From contig CP141148.1 in assembly GCA_035235625.1 (NCBI GenBank), forward strand, positions 19,779,057-19,843,056: a stretch of 64,000 nt of DNA, in the 5' to 3' direction. This DNA comes from Saururus chinensis. Taxonomy: Eukaryota > Streptophyta > Magnoliopsida > Piperales > Saururaceae. A program made the position numbers and the translations under genes. Shown here piece after piece: positions 3,774-42,000 of this stretch (position 1 is its first letter; each line of letters begins with the position of its first letter). Below the pieces are notes generated by a model that was not told the DNA's origin, did no database searches, and was given only the letters and a program-made list of their open reading frames with translations.

Positions 3774-6428
3774 TACTTCATCGGTCTTATTTTAATAGCT
3801 TTAATAGAAAAATAATTTATGTTTTATTTTAATTGTTCCATTCCGCTGAATTAAAATCTAAATACGTATCTAATACTTCTCATGTTAAAACCTATTCACA
3901 TTCGTCCTTCTCACCCATTGGCTTCCCACTGCCTTTTCTTCTTCTTCGTCAATTCAGAACCCGAAGAAGGAGCATGAGAGGGAAAGACTATATCACAATT
4001 AGAATTTATGGAGTAATATACTTAGACCCTTGCCGGCGTTGGAGTGGGCATCTCGGAGATGCTACTAGAGCCCATGGAGTTCCTCTCCCACTCCTAGAGC
4101 GTCTTCGCGCTGGAAGTCTCCAAGGTGCTCACCCAGCACCCCAAGCCCCCCCGACGTGGGTCCTATCCCGGAAGACTCCGACGACGAGTGCTAGGACGAT
4201 GCTCTGGTATCCGGGAACCCCTTAGACTTCACCTCGTCGGCCACCTCGTAGTTGGTCATGGAGCGGATCATGTCCTAGTCGGTGAGCCATTCACATCCTT
4301 AGCAACTCAAGAATTTTTTAGATACTTTTTTCTTCTAGTCCTTTTGCTTTTGTCCCTTTCTTCAGTTCTGATTTTGTTCTTTGGATTTTATGGGAGGAAT
4401 TCAGAAATGAGTTTTAATTGATCTCTCTATTTTGCATGATTTGTTGTGTTCATTCCTGGCTTTTGTTCTTTTGACCGTTTTCTTTGTGTACTTTGTTCTG
4501 ATGATTTCATTTCTTCTAAGACGGTGGGGTCTTGTGTGGCTTAGAACCCAGCTTTGGGGGCAAAGTCTTCTACTTTCTCACAGCTTTAACTTATGTGTTT
4601 TAAGCTGAACTCTTTTTTTTTTGCAATTGTTTTTTCACTCATGCATTGCCAATTTGTGTTTGCTCTTTGAACTTTTGCTCTTTGTGTTCAGTTAACCTCT
4701 AGCATTTGCCTCTTGGGTGCTCTCTCTCTTTGTGTTCACCATGCTGAACCTGCAAGTTCTGGCGTTTCACTATGGCAGCAGCTATTTTAACCTATATTCT
4801 CTTTTACCCTATCCAACTCCTTACGTCTTAGGAGTTCCCTACTCCTGGCAGCTTTAGAACATCCACCATTGGAGGACCAACTTCAACAACTGCTTCTGCC
4901 TGCCTCCATATCTTCCCTTTCTTCTTTCTCTTCCTCCCATTTGTTGGACCATGGTATGGGCTCGAGCCCGGTTTCGTCCAATGGTGTCGCGGTCTGGGTG
5001 AGCCGGTACGGGTCACATGGTCCTAGGGTGGTGGGGACGGTCGCGCAAATCCCACATGTACCTTCGTTACACATAATTCGAATGGGACCCACACATGTCA
5101 CACATATACACTAGACATACATATAGGTGTGCATTTACACATTGTGGGGCCAAGACACGTGAATTAGGTATTGAGGGTGGGACCCGCATGATTATCGAGG
5201 GGTCGATCCTGTCGCGGGCTTGGCCATGCGCAAGGGGTTCAGGCCTCCACGGGCTCTATGGGACAAAGCCCACTCCCGTTGTGTTAGACCCTCTAGTTAA
5301 ACCGAGAAGAATGAAATAGTTTGGCCCATTAGATTTAGCCCACTCAAAAGCCCATTAAGAGAGCTAATTCAAACACTGCCTAAATAAGGAAGGGGGGGTT
5401 ATTAAGGGAGTGAATTAAAGAGAATTAAATGGATTTTATTTCATGCCATTTATGCTTGGGTCGCCCCACCCCTTGAAATGGATCTTCTTCCCAATTGGTT
5501 TTCACTCCCTCACTCTCCTTTCTCTCCCTTCATCTTCCATTGGTGCGGCCTGCTCTTTCTTTGAGAAAAGCTGCTGGCCGCCCTGCTTCTCCCACCTCCA
5601 AGGTGTGTTTGGTGGGCTGAAAGAGGAAGAGGGTTCTCTTCTTAGGCTTGGACGTGGAGGCTGATATATTGGGCTGATCTTGCTGAGTTTCTTCATCAAT
5701 CCAAGCACGGTGTTGAGGGATTTGCACATTAGAAAGGTAAATCTTAATCCCTTCTTATTGATCTTGCTATTGATGTGAGAAGGCTGATTTGAAGGGCGTG
5801 CTAGTGCTGGATCAAGCCTAGGTCAGTATGTATTTATCCAATATTTATATTCATATACTTGATTTGATCATATACATGTTGATATTGCTAATTGTCATTA
5901 GTTTATTGCATGTATTGTGTAGATCTCATATAAAGTTTTGAATTTTATGTGCGCCACCTCCTCCACCAAGTCTTCCGCTACTGGCTGGCCATTCTACACC
6001 ATTCCCTCCACATATTCGGGGAAATTGAAGTTGAGGAGATTGATTAGGGCGATAGGCAGAAGGAGGATGAGTTGGGGCTTCTGAAGGCATGTCACTAGAC
6101 CAGGAAAATCTTTGATTCAAGCAAGGGGAGAATCGAAAGCTTTACTAGAAAAGAGGGAGACGTGGTACTTCCCGTCTACCGAAGGACCATGTTGCATCTC
6201 GGGAGTTTTCACATGAAGGGGGCGGATACTCTTACCTCTGTTTCGTGGTTACGCTTTTCTAATTCTATTTGCATAGGTCTGACGAAACTGACATAAGTAG
6301 ACAAGAGCGGCATAGCGAGGAAGAAAGAAGTTGAATATTATTAGACGTGGAAGAGAGCTTTGGATTACCCGTTCGATAAAACTAACAAAAAATAGAAATG
6401 GAGCTATTAAAATAGGACGGAGGGAGTA
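3774..6428. mobile_element. Segment between Stowaway/mariner-like inverted ends
   Basis: The left end reads TA-CTTCATCGGTCTTATTTTA (from 3774). The right end (to 6428), read on the minus strand, is TA-CTCCCTCCGTCCTATTTTA. The first 25 positions after TA agree at 21, and both continue AATAGCT. CTCCCTCYGTCC with a TA target is the Stowaway (Tc1/mariner) signature, and the small MITE at 62661-62764 shares the right-hand end. The 2.65-kb interior has no transposase. It holds gene-like fragments (3900-4330), intron- or UTR-like DNA (4330-4860) and an LTR-like part (about 4940-5900, TAAATAAGG near 5382). Either one large mariner-like copy carries foreign sequence, or two unrelated MITE ends lie 2.6 kb apart. 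Confidence 0.4.
3960..4330 (+). pseudogene. Gene-like fragment, parent unknown
   Basis: GC-rich stretch in which adjacent frames read ISEMLLEPMEFLSHS and FALEVSKVLTQHPKPPRRG. The reading frame is interrupted and shifts, after which T-rich, intron-like sequence begins. There is no identifiable domain. It lies within the segment bounded by Stowaway-like ends, so capture of a host gene piece is possible. I do not recognise the family. Confidence 0.25.
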
Positions 6429-6454
6429 TTATCTTTATTAGGAGGGAGATGTTA

Positions 6455-6950
6455 GAGCTATTGTGAACGGAGAGGCAGACGGAGGACGAAGAGGCATGGA
6501 GTAATGATCTGGATGGAGAGAAAAGGGGAGCAGTGATATGGACGGAGGAAGAAGCGATATGGGCAGAGGAAGAAAAAGAAAAAGAAGAAGGCGTGGTGGA
6601 GGAAGGAATGCTGTGGAGGAGGCATTTGAGCTGCTATGAACAGAGAAGGAGATGAAGGAGAAGGAGGCATGAAGAATAAAGCATAGAGTAAAGATCTGGA
6701 CGGAGGATGAAATGGAGCATCAACTTAGATGGAGGAAGAAAAAAATAAAAATAGGAGGGCATGGTAGAGGAAGGCACGTGATGAAGAATGTGCCGATATT
6801 GTTGTGGACGGAGAGGGAGACAGAGGAGGAGGTATGGAGCATAAAGCAACGATTTAGACGGAGGAAAAAGCGATATAAATAGAGGAAGAAAAAGAAAAAA
6901 CAAAGAAAAAAAGTAGAAGAAGAAAATAATAAAAAAATAAATTTGTTCAA
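6455..6950. repeat. Purine-rich imperfect tandem repeat, period about 168 bp
   Basis: Three diverged copies begin near 6461, 6629 and 6795, each with a GGAGAGG/GGAGGA block, then GGCATGGAG..AAAG and GAT(C/T)TGGACGGAGGA. The strand is dominated by GGA and GAA. Minus-strand frames rich in Phe, Leu and Ser here are composition artefacts. Confidence 0.6.
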
Positions 6951-7795
6951 AAATATAAATTATGTAAATTTTTATGGATAATTCACAAAGTTGTCATTAC
7001 CTTCGTCATCAGATAAAGTCTGCTGCTCATGGGAGCATACGTTAGTATTTTGATAAAAAAAATTAGTTATTCTAAGATAAGATATCGTCAAAAATTATAA
7101 CATAGTGACTTAAAACAATAATAGCATAATAGTCAACTATATCCTTTGATTTAAGAGAGAGAAGTTGGTTGGTGCAGGGTGGGTCCATGACGGGGTACAT
7201 GTGAATTCCTCCCTAGTTATTGATTACTCTTACTTTCAAAAAAATTTGTGAATGAGGACATGTCGCCAAATTCAATAGAATGGGGCCAAGGGGCAACCTT
7301 TGATCCGAATGATGAGACTCAAGTTAGTTTAAGAAGCTATTGGGAACTTGGGCAACCTTTGAGTTGTCCTCGAGTTCACAATTTTTTGGCACAGTGTTAC
7401 ACACCCTTTGGAGCTTACGATGGGGGCAAGAGTTTGAGGTCTTTCATAATAGTGATGGTCTCCTGTGCTTGCCATTGGCAGATTGGTCTAACGTTCCTAT
7501 GGGTATAATCAAACATTTTTAGTAAAAAAATTTTTTACCGCCTTCACCTTTGTAGCGAGCTCAGATTCTATGGGTATAATAAAATAATTTTAATAAAAAA
7601 AATAAAATATCTTTAATGAGGCCTGTTGAGCAAATTAATATTAACCTCCGTGACACACCGCGTTACCGTCAAATACTCCCTCGAGTAGTTAATTTAATAC
7701 TAATTAAACATATAAGTGCTTAATTTGCTGACAGTGTAACTGCTTAATTTTCACAGATATTTCTATATACATCATCATTTCGCTGGCGCACAACT
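6951..7795. other. Intergenic, nothing firmly identified
   Basis: AT-rich DNA downstream of the minus-strand gene. It has an 86-codon plus frame (7248-7508) without family resemblance. A short direct repeat, TGGGTATAAT followed by A/T runs, occurs at about 7500 and 7570. The 3' UTR and poly(A) site of the minus-strand gene should fall just left of 7796. Confidence 0.5.
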
Positions 7796-35791: not shown

Positions 35792-36422
35792 ACAAATAAA
35801 CATGTGTCATGCACTATTTTTTAATTAATAAAAGGGAGAATCTCGAGTTTATCTATCATATTAACTATTACCCGATTATTCTATAATCATGTTAGATTTT
35901 TTAGTGATTTTCAACTCCCATCGCAAAATAAAACTTTATATAATTTACCTTTATTAGACAACCAAAGTCGGCATCACAACCTAACCAAGTTGGTTAACCT
36001 CGACTTGCCAAGTTCAGTCCAACCAAGCTTACAAGTGTCATTGAGTACCTTGACAGTGCACTTGTGCAATGTAGGGCAACTCTAGCGTCTATATAGATCA
36101 CTACATCCCATAGTGGGGTCTAAGTCATGATGATTTGGAATGATACATATTTTAAATATAAATCACATCATAAAGTAGCATATAGGTATGTGCATGTATA
36201 TGTCAAACTCGTACAATATATATACATATAGTCATTTAGTATAGAAGAATGTATTGAATATAGTTGCATATAAATAATTTCATATTCTATATGAAAATAT
36301 CATCGAACAATACTTATAAAGATAAGTAGGAAATAGCTATATAAATACTATTTAGGAAATACATGAAAAATAGCTATGAAAAAATACACTAAATATGACT
36401 ATATGCCTAATAGTGCTCCTAA
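35790..36422. other. AT-rich non-coding DNA left of the MULE
   Basis: No gene. The sequence up to 36431 continues beyond the MULE at 39027, so it was the target of that insertion. A fragment near 35960-36120 is LTR-like but unassigned. Confidence 0.4.
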
Positions 36423-36431
36423 TACATAATC

Positions 36432-36709
36432 GGGAAAATTATTTAAATAATAATTTTTTAAAAAATATTTACCAAATCAACCCACTTTGGAAAATATTTC
36501 TTTGGTAAATATTTCCCAAAGTGGTGTTGTTTTTTGCCACGTAGGCGCAAGCCAAGCCGCTGGTGGTTTGGATTAGACATATTAAGCCAATTTCGTCCTT
36601 CTAAAGGACAAAATCGTCATACTTCGCAATTTGGCCTTTAGTCTCTCTAAGCCAAAAGCGATTTCGTCCTTTTAAAGGACGAAATTGTCTTCGTTTTTAA
36701 CCCGACTCC
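36432..36709 (+). repeat. Left TIR of the MULE
   Basis: Contains an ACCCACTTTGGAAAATATTT/CCCAAAGTGG hairpin, GCCACGTAGGCGC, and two palindromic modules of the form TTTCGTCCTT-TAAAGGACRAAAT (about 36591-36614 and 36660-36684). Confidence 0.85.
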
Positions 36710-36969
36710 GCTTCTCTGCTCTAGTTCATCCTGTGCTCGTTTCTTCTCCGTGCTCGTTCCCCTTTCCGCCATGCTGCCGTGCTTCGTGTTTGAGCACCGC
36801 CGCCAAGACCTCGGGGATTGTAGGTTGTCTAACCCTTCTTTAGCTAAATGAATTCGTAACTTCAAATATTTTTTTCACGTATAATTCCTTAATTTTTTTT
36901 AATAACTTTTATCATATTTTGTGACACAACTATGGTCATAGGAGCATTTACATGTCTGTTGACCAAGTA

Positions 36970-38279
36970 TTGAGATGGGTAACTTAGTCGAGGGTGCTCC
37001 ATTAGGAGCAAGGTAGGCTTTATTTATTTTTAACACTTAATTTTTTTAGCAAGGTTTTATTTACATATGTTAAACTCATTTTTTAAATTTAACTCCTTAA
37101 GGTGGAATGTTTGGAAAATGAAAACTGAAAATCCACAAGGAGTCCTCCAATTATTGTAGAGGGGAGTTAGACCACCAGCGGCCATATCAGGTAATTTTAT
37201 TTTATTATTAAATTTTTTAAAATAATTATAAGATATGTGAGGTTATTTAAACTTAATTATCTTTATATATTATATAAGTTATTTGGTAGCCGTACTCACC
37301 GGAAGTATTGGCTGTGTTACCTCCTGTATGCACCGACGATCGAGATGTGTGGCTATCGCGAACACCACTAGTCTGTTATGAGATTATAGAGATGTATGTG
37401 TTGGATCGTGTAATGCTCCAATTTAACCTAGAGAAAGTGGTCCCACCTTCTACTGTCTAGTTTATCCATCGCATCACTCGACAAGGCTGCCATATTACCG
37501 ACTGGGCTATACATCATGCAGCATATATCGTTCAATGGGATAATAGGAGAACCACTGTTATCCATGGGGAGATGGCTACAACATCTCCAGATGTTCATAG
37601 TGCATATATCCAGTGGCATTTATCAATTACAGGGCGATATATTTTACCACGCGATAAAGTAGAGGAGATGACATATCAGCCTAGGGGTGCGTCTGAGGCA
37701 GCTTTGGTAAGTATAACTTTGTTAATTAAGGCACAAATTATTTTCTTATTTATTATTTGTCTAATTTTTAATTTCTTTTTTTTATAGCTTCGTTTAGTGC
37801 GATGTATGCATGAGTATTTGACTTACGCAATTAACACTTGTACTTCGGGTGAGGACTTTTTAGCGTCATGTCAGTCGATGCTTAGGGAGCATGATGATGT
37901 CCTTCGTAGCTTGCCACTGCTTCAATTGGTGATTACGAATGTTCATAGACATTATCATGTCGACGAGGCTGCTTAGACACAGCCGAGGCACAATTCATTT
38001 CCTGATATTCCATCTTCATCAACAGTGCATAGCTCTCCTCCTCGTTCATCATTTCCGGTCACTCCACATATAGCCTATCCTCAGCCAGATCTGATATTGT
38101 ATTATAGACGACATCAGCCAGCTCGTGTTGAGCCATCTATTACTTATGCAGAGCTGAAGCCAGAGCCACAATGGGAGCCAGAGCCAGAGCCAGAGCCGGA
38201 GCTAGAGCAGGCATACCATGAGGAGGAGGAGCTCATAAGGCAGCGTCGAGGTCGAGGCCAAGGACATAGGAGATCATGA
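36970..38279 (+). pseudogene. Plant mobile domain (PMD, MAIN/MAIL1-like) gene inside the MULE
   Basis: Exon-like blocks: about 36970-37011 (ends GAPLGA), 37102-37190, 37279-37706 and 37788-38279. The GT-AG sites keep phase throughout. The protein reads WNVWKMKTENPQGVLQLL, then PYSPEVLAVLPPVCTDDRDV, LSRTPLVCYEII, VMLQFNLEKVVPP and FIHRITRQGCHITDWAIHHA, with AAYIVQWDNRR and SAYIQWHLSITGRYI. This is the plant mobile domain often annotated as serine/threonine phosphatase 7 long form homolog. Host relatives (MAIN, MAIL1) act in transposon silencing and genome stability. The tail is Pro/Glu-rich (EPEPEPELEQ) and ends in an RQRRGRGQGHRRS basic stretch. Four in-frame TAG codons interrupt it, one in block 2, two in block 3 and one in block 4. 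It is therefore probably a pseudogene, though the splice frame is otherwise preserved. A trans-acting or decoy role for the element is speculation. Confidence 0.8.
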
Positions 38280-38632
38280 CATTGAGTGTATTAGATTTGT
38301 CATATGCTTCTTTTGAACTAAACATTTTATTAATATGTGATGTAATATATTTTATAAATATTTATATCTTATGCTTGTTTTTATGTGGTGCATATGATGG
38401 TTGATGTTGATAACTTTAATGTTATGTGAATAATAGTTAATGTAGATAAGTTTGATGTTTTGTAGATGTTAATTAAACATATGCATGGAATGTGTGTGGA
38501 ATGAATGAATAGGGGATAGGTGTATTTGTATAATGTGTGTTGATTGAATTTATGATTGTATAATGTGTTGAATGAATGAATAGAGACAAGTGTTAAATTT
38601 AGTTTAAAAGAATTTTTTTTAAAAGTTCTAAA

Positions 38633-39026
38633 GGAGTCAGGTTAAAAACAAAGACGATTTCGTCATTTAAAAGGACAAAATTGCGTTTGGCTTAGACAAA
38701 CTAAAGGCCGAATTGTGAAGTATGGCGATTTTTTCCTTTAGAAGGATGAAATCACCTTAAGCGGATTTCGTCCTTCTAAAGGATGAAATTAGCTTAATCT
38801 GTTGTAACCCGATTTCGTCCTTTGGAAGGACGAAATCAACTTAAACTTGATTTCGTCCTTCCAAAGGATGAAATCATATATTTTTTTTAAAAAAAATGTC
38901 ACGTAGGCGCCAGCGGCTTGACTAGCACCTACGTGGCAAAAAACAACACTACTTTGGAAAATATTTCCCAAAGTGGGTTGATTTGGTAAATATTTTTTTA
39001 AAAGTATTATTTAAATAATTTTCCCT
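38633..39026 (-). repeat. Right TIR of the MULE, longer through extra palindromic modules
   Basis: Complement of the left TIR but about 115 bp longer. Palindromic TTTCGTCCTT..AAGGACGAAAT modules occur about five times between 38660 and 38880, against two in the left arm. Confidence 0.85.
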
Positions 39027-39099
39027 ACATAATCTTATACTAATAAAAACATGTGTTCCATAAAATGCAAAAGCATCCATATATTACATAATATACACG

Positions 39100-42000
39100 G
39101 AAATATAATAATTAAGAATAGGTATATAAGAGTAAAAACAGGATTATTCACAAATTTCACATGTACCCTATGGAATTCGCAAAAATCACCAAAATAGCAT
39201 GCTTTTAGTAATTAAATCATAGAAAATAGTATAATATTTTTTGCGGCTCAGGATTTTGGAAGCATATACAAATTTTTCTCCATAAAAATATCGGAGTTTA
39301 CCTAGGCCCGCGACTAGAGACACTCGCCATATGTGATAATAAAAATAATTAGTTCCTAGGAACTACTGTCTGTGTACAAACATACAAGAGAAAAATAATG
39401 AAGAGAGTACTTACTTGTGATTTTTACTTGTGGTTCAAAAATCCTTGAAATCACCTCGACAACTCCTAAGTAGGCCATTCTACCTGCACACTAAGCTTTG
39501 ACGGGTCCTGCAAGGTTTGGGGGGTAATGAGTATTTTAAGATACTATGTAGGAGAGTTTATAGAATCAGGCATGAAATAATCACATAGTAGTTACATAGC
39601 ACATATCATAGATACTATTTTTCATAAAAACATGGTATGTCTCTCACCCAAAACCACCCTTAGAGCTTCTTCCTACGTATAGAAGATGCTCATAGGGTTT
39701 GTAAGCTTTCATGACTTACAACAAGTGTCCTAGACACCTACTCTATCCTATGGACTTTGCAGCAGGTACAAAGCAATAGCCTCTTACTCCTTCATAGATC
39801 ATCCCAAAATGCCTCGCGCTTGTGGAGAGGAGGGCCACTTGTGCTCATAGGGCATAGAGATAATGAGAGTAGAGAGTCTTTATATGATGCTCTCTACCCT
39901 AGCGTGCGTAGCCTTATAGGTGTCATTCGTTAGGGGCTAATTAGGGGTCTTACCCTTCGTTAAGGACTCAATAAGCTAAAACAAGTATCATGCATCTGAT
40001 TTCAAATCGGATTATAATTGCACCCTCATCTAATCCATAAACCTTTATCGGGGCACCTAACAATAGCTCCAGACAACCAAAACACTCTTGAGCCCTAGAC
40101 TCATAATCTTCAATCCCAGACTCATAACCAAAACATTCTAGAGTTCCCAGACTCATAAAGTGCAATTTTCTTTTAAAGCATTATATCCCATTGTTTATTA
40201 TTTTAAAAACCCTAGCCTCATCTTTACAAGCCATGAGAGCGTCACTATCAATGACTACAAAGTCTAGGTTGATTGCTCGTTTGAACAAGATAGCTACCCC
40301 TTCTTTGTCCTGCTTTAGTGACTTGATCACCATGCTTATACGTATTTTAGAAAATCATCTTAAGATTCCTCCTTTTGATAAGGACGAGTTCTCTAAAACT
40401 TCCTTTCACACATACTATATTCATTCGCAATGAAATAGTGGTGAAGCTAAATCGTCTCTATCTCACACGCTTTAACATGTATAATTTATATCAAATTCCA
40501 TGGATAAATATTCAATAAAACTATTATATATGAGGCAATTGTAAAGCATTTAGTATATAAAATATATCCGCTTCCAAAGGAAATAATTTTATATATATAT
40601 AGGAAATCATAAAGCATGCAATATAATAAACATGCCCACTTCCAATAGACAATTATTCGACTAATAGAATATACATAATAGAATTATAAACATATAGTAT
40701 ATAATTTCGTATGCTATCTTAACAATTAATCATTCAAAAAATCGAATATATGTGCATAAATCATAACTTGAAAGTAACTCTAACGCATAATAAGCAAGAG
40801 TCATAATTATTAAGTTAAAAACATAACCAAAGTTCATAATCATGCCTTAAGAAAAGATAAAACTCCTACCTCGCTCTCCGCATGAGTTCAAAGATGAGGC
40901 GCTAGTCACCACACACTTGGACATCCACTTTTGGGGCTTTAGAGGTTTCTAACCAAAAAAATAGCCCTGCCACGTTGTCTTGCACAATTGATTTAGGTAA
41001 GAACGTCTCTTGAACAACGCAAACTGAACTAAAAATGACTCAGAATAAGAGAAATGAAGTTTGAAGAACATGGGAGAGAAGAAACTAGAAAAATTGGAAA
41101 AACTAGAACCTCACGCCTATTTATTCTCTAAATTCGTAAGAATAAATAAAATTAACAAAACGACGAACCAATTGGACCACTGTTAGTCATATAATATCTT
41201 TTTAATAGATTAAAACAAGAACTTATTTAAGAGTATGTTCAAATAATTATATAAAGAGACCTCCCATTTATTTGTAATGTCTGTAATCATAAAAAAAATA
41301 CACAAAGTGATACCGCAATTGGACCACTCTTTCTTATGTTAAGTCATTATATTCATTAAACTAGTTTTAGGATAAAGAACCCAAGCAAGTCTAGAATGTG
41401 TACTTCAATGTTCTATATAAATATGCACGGATTCACTACGTTCGTAAGAAATGAATCAAAAGAACAAAATGATGAACCAATCAAGAGCTCATTAAGAATG
41501 TGCACTAATCGTTATATCCTTTTAAGTTTAAAGAGATATCCTAATCATTTATTACATTAATAATCATGAATTAAATACACAAAGTGTAACCGCAATTCAA
41601 CTGCTCTTCCTTAAGTACAATGTTTTTGTTCGATTAACTAGTTTTAGGTCTAAGAACCTATGCTCGTCAAGAATGTGTACTTCAAGGTTTTAAATAAATG
41701 CATACTCATTCTCTAAGTTAGTAAGAATAAATAAAATGAACTAAACGATAAACCAATTAGACCACTTTTGGTCAGGTTATATCCTTTTATTCGATTAAAA
41801 TAGGAGCAGTTTATGAATATGCTCAAATCATTATATTGCATAATGTTTAAAGAGACATCTCATTTATTTGTAACGTTTGTAATCATAAATCAAATACATC
41901 GAGTGATGCCGCAATTGGAATGCTCTTTCTTATAATAAGTCCTTTCATTTGTTAAACTTGCTTTAATACAAAGAACCCAAGCTTTTCATTAATGTGTACT

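Follow-up and report, generated by a model that had tools for sequence, protein, structure and literature searches.

Introduction

Internally deleted derivatives are familiar among MULEs, the Mu elements that accompany MuDR being an example. MULEs that carry a plant mobile domain (PMD) of clade PMD-C have been reported from several grasses and from Amborella by Ikeda et al. 2017 (PMC5418596), who consider the PMD to have been captured from the host and propose that it is put to anti-silencing use; as published, there were two captures of the PMD. The same paper attributes the first description, made in a rice MULE, to the work listed as its reference 30; from PMC9289625 we identify this as Babu et al. 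2006. PMD-C associated with transposable elements may occur in non-eudicot angiosperms according to Nicolau et al. 2020 (PMC7156037), a 2021 review (PMC8616336) repeats the counter-silencing idea, and PMC9289625 places PMDs in Gypsy elements as well as in MULEs. Anti-silencing that involves arrays of motifs is described for VANC (PMC5735166). Here we compare with these systems an element found in a window of Saururus chinensis DNA, that is, in the whole stretch of 64,000 nucleotides that was analysed, which lies on contig C9 of the 516-Mb assembly (11 contigs) that we searched.

Results

Borders and target site of the window element

The window contains an element bounded by terminal inverted repeats (TIRs) at 36432-39025, or 36423-39034 with both target-site duplications. 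These duplications (strandless) are perfect over 9 bp: the left copy, TACATAATC, at 36423-36431 is identical to the right copy at 39026-39034. The left TIR region extends over 36432-36709 on the plus strand and the right one over 38633-39025 on the minus strand. Their inverted arms pair at 82% (36433-36499 with 38959-39025), 91% (36500-36563 with 38910-38973) and 87% (36582-36709 with 38633-38760), that is, at 82-91% over 64-128 nt. Long TIRs and a 9-bp target duplication mark the element as a MULE, and no transposase was found among its open reading frames; the initial annotation, which had described a non-autonomous MULE with long TIRs and a perfect 9-bp duplication, was right on these points.

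As an empty-site test, we joined the two flanks without the element into a query of 207 bases. Among the 34 rows returned outside the window, 22 match across the joint at 72-79% identity, the best of them, C1:58393455-58393665, covering positions 2-206 of the 207. None of the joined-flank matches in this genome is an identical empty site; despite this imperfection, they support the borders of the element. The insertion target itself (36330-36431 and 39035-39139) seems, from the same 22 of 34 rows, to lie inside a dispersed repeat.

The PMD part is a remnant

Between the TIRs lie five PMD exon remnants on the plus strand, whose limits were inferred from splice-like signals and from the relatives described below. 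The first is a truncated large exon, reduced to its final 14 codons (42 bp, 36802-36843), which ends in TAG at 36841 and is followed by a splice donor that reads CT, not GT, at 36844; the likely acceptor at 36928 reads AA. The second (36930-37012) has two nonsense codons, TAG at 36939 and TGA at 36960, the third (37102-37190) a frameshift near 37150-37159, and the fourth (37279-37706), which corresponds to profile positions 243-346 of PF10536, nonsense codons at 37287 and 37458. The last (37788-38279) has a sixth nonsense codon at 37974 and carries a tail of E/P repeats and an R/G-rich end. PF10536 was matched in two pieces, profile 243-293 in 37290-37460 (E 1.5e-8; 34.7 bits, slightly below the cut-off of 34.9) and profile 296-346 in 37461-37787 (E 0.044), both of which belong to the C-terminal half of the domain. 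The N-terminal half, profile 1-181 in the relatives, is missing from the window element, as is the start exon.

The spliced PMD gene of the initial annotation thus survives as intron-separated exon remnants and not as a working PMD, given the stops, the frameshift and the splice damage; its four exon-like blocks in consistent phase are replaced by five remnants along a reading path that stops and a frameshift have broken. It had also been suggested that the element could interfere with host silencing as a decoy or modifier. PMD proteins do act in silencing, MAIN and MAIL1 being the reported cases (PMC5418596, PMC7156037), and a truncated PMD protein made by the window copy could be pictured in such a role; the missing start exon, the six nonsense codons, the frameshift and the damaged splice sites make this reading extremely improbable, since an untranslatable remnant leaves the window copy unable to serve as a protein decoy.

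In the C-terminal tail (L042 8453-8980; window 38151-38198), E/P repeats vary in length from copy to copy, and the end is R/G-rich. Variable regions with arrayed peptide motifs are reported for VANC proteins too (PMC5735166).

Full-length relatives combine a MuDR-type transposase with the PMD

We analysed four 10-kb stretches around other PMD copies of the same genome (L039-L042). They contain elements some 6.7-7.4 kb long, bounded on either side by terminal repeats; PMD exons, with introns as in the window remnant, come after the transposase frames and share their strand. A perfect 9-bp target-site duplication was computed for L041 (TTAAAAAAA) and read by eye from the flanks of L039 (GTGTTTCAA); a clean one was not found in L040 or L042. 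Pfam searches of L040 and L042 returned DBD_Tnp_Mut, MULE, SWIM and PMD, the transposase domains of L040 (DBD_Tnp_Mut 7.1e-12, MULE 1.2e-17, SWIM 2.8e-5) identifying the transposase of the family as MuDR-type. The PMD of the relatives is matched over profile 1-181 at E 6e-51 and over 239-346 at E 3.4e-19. Some full copies are damaged, stops or frame breaks having split the transposase of L039 into three pieces and that of L042 into two. The absence of transposase noted in the initial annotation therefore applies to the window copy and not to its family. Its proposal to look for further copies in the genome is answered by the loci fetched, full relatives that carry the PMD with the same introns, and the window copy is not a sole copy equal to a neighbouring host locus, the case that it had set against its own reading.

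The pairing of PMD and transposase extends across the family. Transposase sequence lies upstream of the PMD in 33 of 41 loci (L006 and L039, and likewise L007 and L042, are the same places), and the same holds for 12 of an additional 14 loci, which had been picked for PMD exons without stops. No transposase lies upstream in the other 8 of the 41, one of which, L003, represents another PMD family. Seen from the transposase, 49 of 75 copies are followed at 240-296 bp, in the same orientation, by one of the 150 PMD matches listed, and two more have a PMD match about 373 bp downstream, so that at least 51 of the 75 are paired; the remaining 24 have no PMD among the matches listed, and some of them may truly be without one. 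Three shifted controls gave no pairing at all. In the full-length relatives the large PMD exon lies about 285 bp beyond the transposase. PMD and transposase thus occur inside one TIR-bounded element, as seen in L039-L042 and in the pairings of at least 51 of 75 transposase copies, and this pairing makes the PMD a regular part of the family and not a capture by the window copy. Young copies within the family differ by 1-2%.

The two genes appear as separate frames. The transposase frame ends in TAA directly after the zinc-knuckle end in 34 of 35 readable loci, and the first PMD exon begins with ATG in 38 of the 41 loci in which the alignment reached the first residue, a requirement that in itself biases the count towards ATG. 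In L042, transposase and PMD are about 100 bp apart. A spliced fusion of transposase and PMD is possible on paper.

An internal deletion accounts for the window copy

Another relative, L049 (C5:20410400-20418000), contains both of the stretches that adjoin in the window element. Element positions 1-377 align with positions 157-548 of the reverse complement of L049 at 69%, positions 371-2092, the PMD part, with 5365-7034 at 87%, and positions 2296-2590 with 7073-7376 at 79%. The left subterminal stretch, which goes back to the 5' terminus of a full-length element, occupies 36710-36801 on the plus strand of the window; it is followed at 36802-36805 by the deletion junction (strandless), where positions 548 and 5365 of L049 adjoin, about 4.8 kb is missing and the two parent stretches share a 4-bp match, GCCA, a microhomology that is judged through a relative. 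The likeness of 87% in the PMD part and 69% in the left part makes L049 a relative and not the parent; its target-site duplication has two mismatches by eye.

A pattern of 36 bases across the junction, searched with up to 3 mismatches, has a single site in the genome and none in its reversed control, from which we conclude that the deletion is private to this copy and has founded no subfamily at that stringency. Among the matches listed from a DNA search with the whole element (40 places scored), those of other copies to the element's body start at position 371 or later, and matches before position 371 fall in the terminal repeats. A search with the left 409 bases, again with 40 places scored, gave longest left-end matches that stop at 370-382.

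The window element is almost certainly a dead non-autonomous MULE that arose by one internal deletion in a MULE of about 7 kb carrying transposase and PMD. By this deletion the transposase and the beginning of the PMD gene would have been lost, and the 5' end would have come to adjoin the final codons of the large PMD exon at the 4-bp match, a joining of the kind expected from abortive gap repair or microhomology end-joining; the resulting copy could presumably move only with transposase supplied in trans. Because it lacks transposase and has intron-bearing PMD exons within its TIRs, the element could also be taken for a Pack-MULE that picked up part of a host PMD gene. The same PMD with its introns, however, sits in transposase-bearing elements, and L049 holds the left end and the PMD part together; the Pack-MULE reading, in which the internal fragment would derive from a host locus outside the element, is highly improbable. 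We therefore reject capture of a host gene by the window copy, whose internal part matches PMD-carrying MULEs. The DNA-level capture proposed in the initial annotation holds in so far as the introns reflect inheritance at the DNA level; the window copy itself captured nothing, its parent MULE having already had the PMD. The family as a whole may go back to an older capture. The best supported explanation of the window copy, one that the initial annotation had not considered, is that it is a deletion derivative of a PMD-bearing MULE.

L003 was considered as a host PMD gene and rejected as such, being a member of a second multi-copy PMD family. This family comprises L003 (C1:36965775-36970031), C5:4437163, C8:26793564 and others. 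Its identity to the MULE PMD is about 40%; of the 150 L003 matches scored, more than 40 have an identity to L003 of at least 75%. No clear pairing of this family with the MULE transposase was seen by eye among the best 150 of 2831 transposase candidates.

Selection on PMD and transposase

Selection was estimated from 52 loci, duplicates, the window copy, L003, three end-only loci and two plastid loci having been left out; 14 of the 52 had been fetched for a stop-free PMD exon, which biases the set towards open copies. Open full-length stretches were obtained for the large PMD exon (16), the later PMD exon (17) and the N and C parts of the transposase (9 each). We used the ratio of mean dN to mean dS over pairs, which are non-independent, and the requirement for open frames lowers dN somewhat. 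The ratio is 0.197 for the large PMD exon (120 pairs; 0.171 when restricted to the 48 pairs with dS >0.4), 0.392 for the later PMD exon (136 pairs), and 0.318 and 0.542 for the N and C parts of the transposase (36 pairs each). For the same four stretches in this order, the ratios are 0.294, 0.478, 0.257 and 0.365 at dS 0.1-0.2, 0.50, 1.73, 0.87 and 1.12 at dS <0.05, and 0.66, 0.59, 0.93 and 1.01 in the five copies that are open in all four. The large PMD exon, like the transposase, is under purifying selection in the more divergent pairs; a strong reading of this is countered by the ratios at dS <0.05 and in the five fully open copies. The values fit a PMD that selection maintains along the lineage of active elements and that decays after insertion, as the transposase does. 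Separately, plastid-type rbcL insertions were seen in nuclear chromosomes (L047, L048 and others); three span the whole Pfam domain, and one of these three, L048, is stop-free.

In intact relatives the most likely role, which we put forward tentatively, is that the PMD protein would help the element against host silencing. MURB may be an accessory transposition protein for MuDR, and a corresponding role for the PMD of the full elements, in place of an anti-silencing one, is possible if somewhat doubtful: at dS 0.1-0.2 the large PMD exon and the transposase are under similar selection (0.294 against 0.257 and 0.365), and the PMD is coupled with the transposase. Selection and coupling would each agree with whatever function benefits the element, and genic relatives of the PMD are reported in silencing (PMC5418596, PMC7156037), which speaks against an accessory transposition protein.

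Palindromes in the TIRs

The TIRs contain copies of a 23-bp palindrome consisting of TTTCGTC, C/G, TT, three bases, AA, G/C and GACGAAA, which we scored with up to 5 mismatches. The window element has seven, two in the left TIR region (element positions 160 and 231; 36591-36684) and five in the right (38658-38873), L049 has five and L039-L042 have 8-11 each; in all six elements they lie within about 400 bp of an end, and the remainder of the window yielded none. Searched across the genome at up to 1 mismatch, the CCTT form gave 2867 sites, against none for the reversed control. The variable base is complementary to its mate in 129 of 205 sites from 57 sequences (shuffled mean 85.6, maximum 105), a figure that the relatedness of copies inflates. 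Two subfamily forms can be distinguished, CCTT/AAGG in the window element and L049 and mostly CGTT/AACG in L039-L042, the four full elements that are younger, and the base change between them preserves the symmetry of the palindrome. No matching case of palindromic subterminal arrays in MULEs was seen among the open-licence papers listed, and these arrays are possibly a new feature.

Inverted ends and palindromes that could fold raise the question of a non-coding source of small RNAs, with which the window copy would silence its full-length relatives. Both are common to those relatives, which speaks for such a role; ends of the same kind are equally present in other copies, and we regard this role as very unlikely.

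The palindromes may bind transposase, PMD or neither. By analogy with VANC, the parent family could be a PMD-based, sequence-specific anti-silencing system in which a selected PMD protein recognises the CpG-containing palindromes of the TIRs and shields them, a proposal that we consider rather improbable. Were it true, the PMD would recognise the palindromes alone or with host PMD partners; a change that keeps the symmetry would be expected, because binding protein and sites would evolve together; and deletion derivatives like the window copy, which keep the sites without the protein, would profit passively. A use of the sites by the transposase is equally possible.

Discussion

The initial annotation had regarded the locus as a candidate for an undescribed system. 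PMDs in MULEs, their capture from the host and their possible anti-silencing use were already in print (PMC5418596); since PMD-bearing MULEs are known, the window copy is ordinary, a dead deletion derivative of little weight in itself. The family outweighs the locus, being a large set of MULEs in which an open PMD gene is kept by selection, outside the grasses and Amborella, from which PMD MULEs were reported before. It bears on whether PMD capture took place twice, as published, or a single time early on, and its young copies and defined TIR motif offer a concrete system for asking whether transposons use the PMD against silencing. No magnoliid case of a PMD in a MULE was found among the open-licence papers listed, and the magnoliid host is possibly a new feature, as may be the separate transposase and PMD frames in comparison with the published PMD MULEs.

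Among known systems, internally deleted MULE derivatives resemble the window copy in having retained TIRs and target-site duplication and lost the transposase, and we see no essential difference between them. Pack-MULEs are, like the window copy, non-autonomous MULEs with gene-like exons, but the exons of the window copy belong to the kind of element from which it descends and not to a host gene. The PMD MULEs of Ikeda et al. 2017 share with the present family, as far as gene content is compared, the combination of MULE transposase and PMD in one element; they are described there as fusion proteins, whereas here the transposase has its own TAA (34 of 35) and the PMD its own ATG (38 of 41), and their hosts are grasses and Amborella, whereas ours is the magnoliid Saururus chinensis. 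VANDAL21, with VANC (PMC5735166), differs in its protein, VANC there and PMD here, and in that our motif is a palindrome in the TIRs; the two are alike in having an extra protein gene together with repeated non-coding motifs that differ in number and sequence between related copies.
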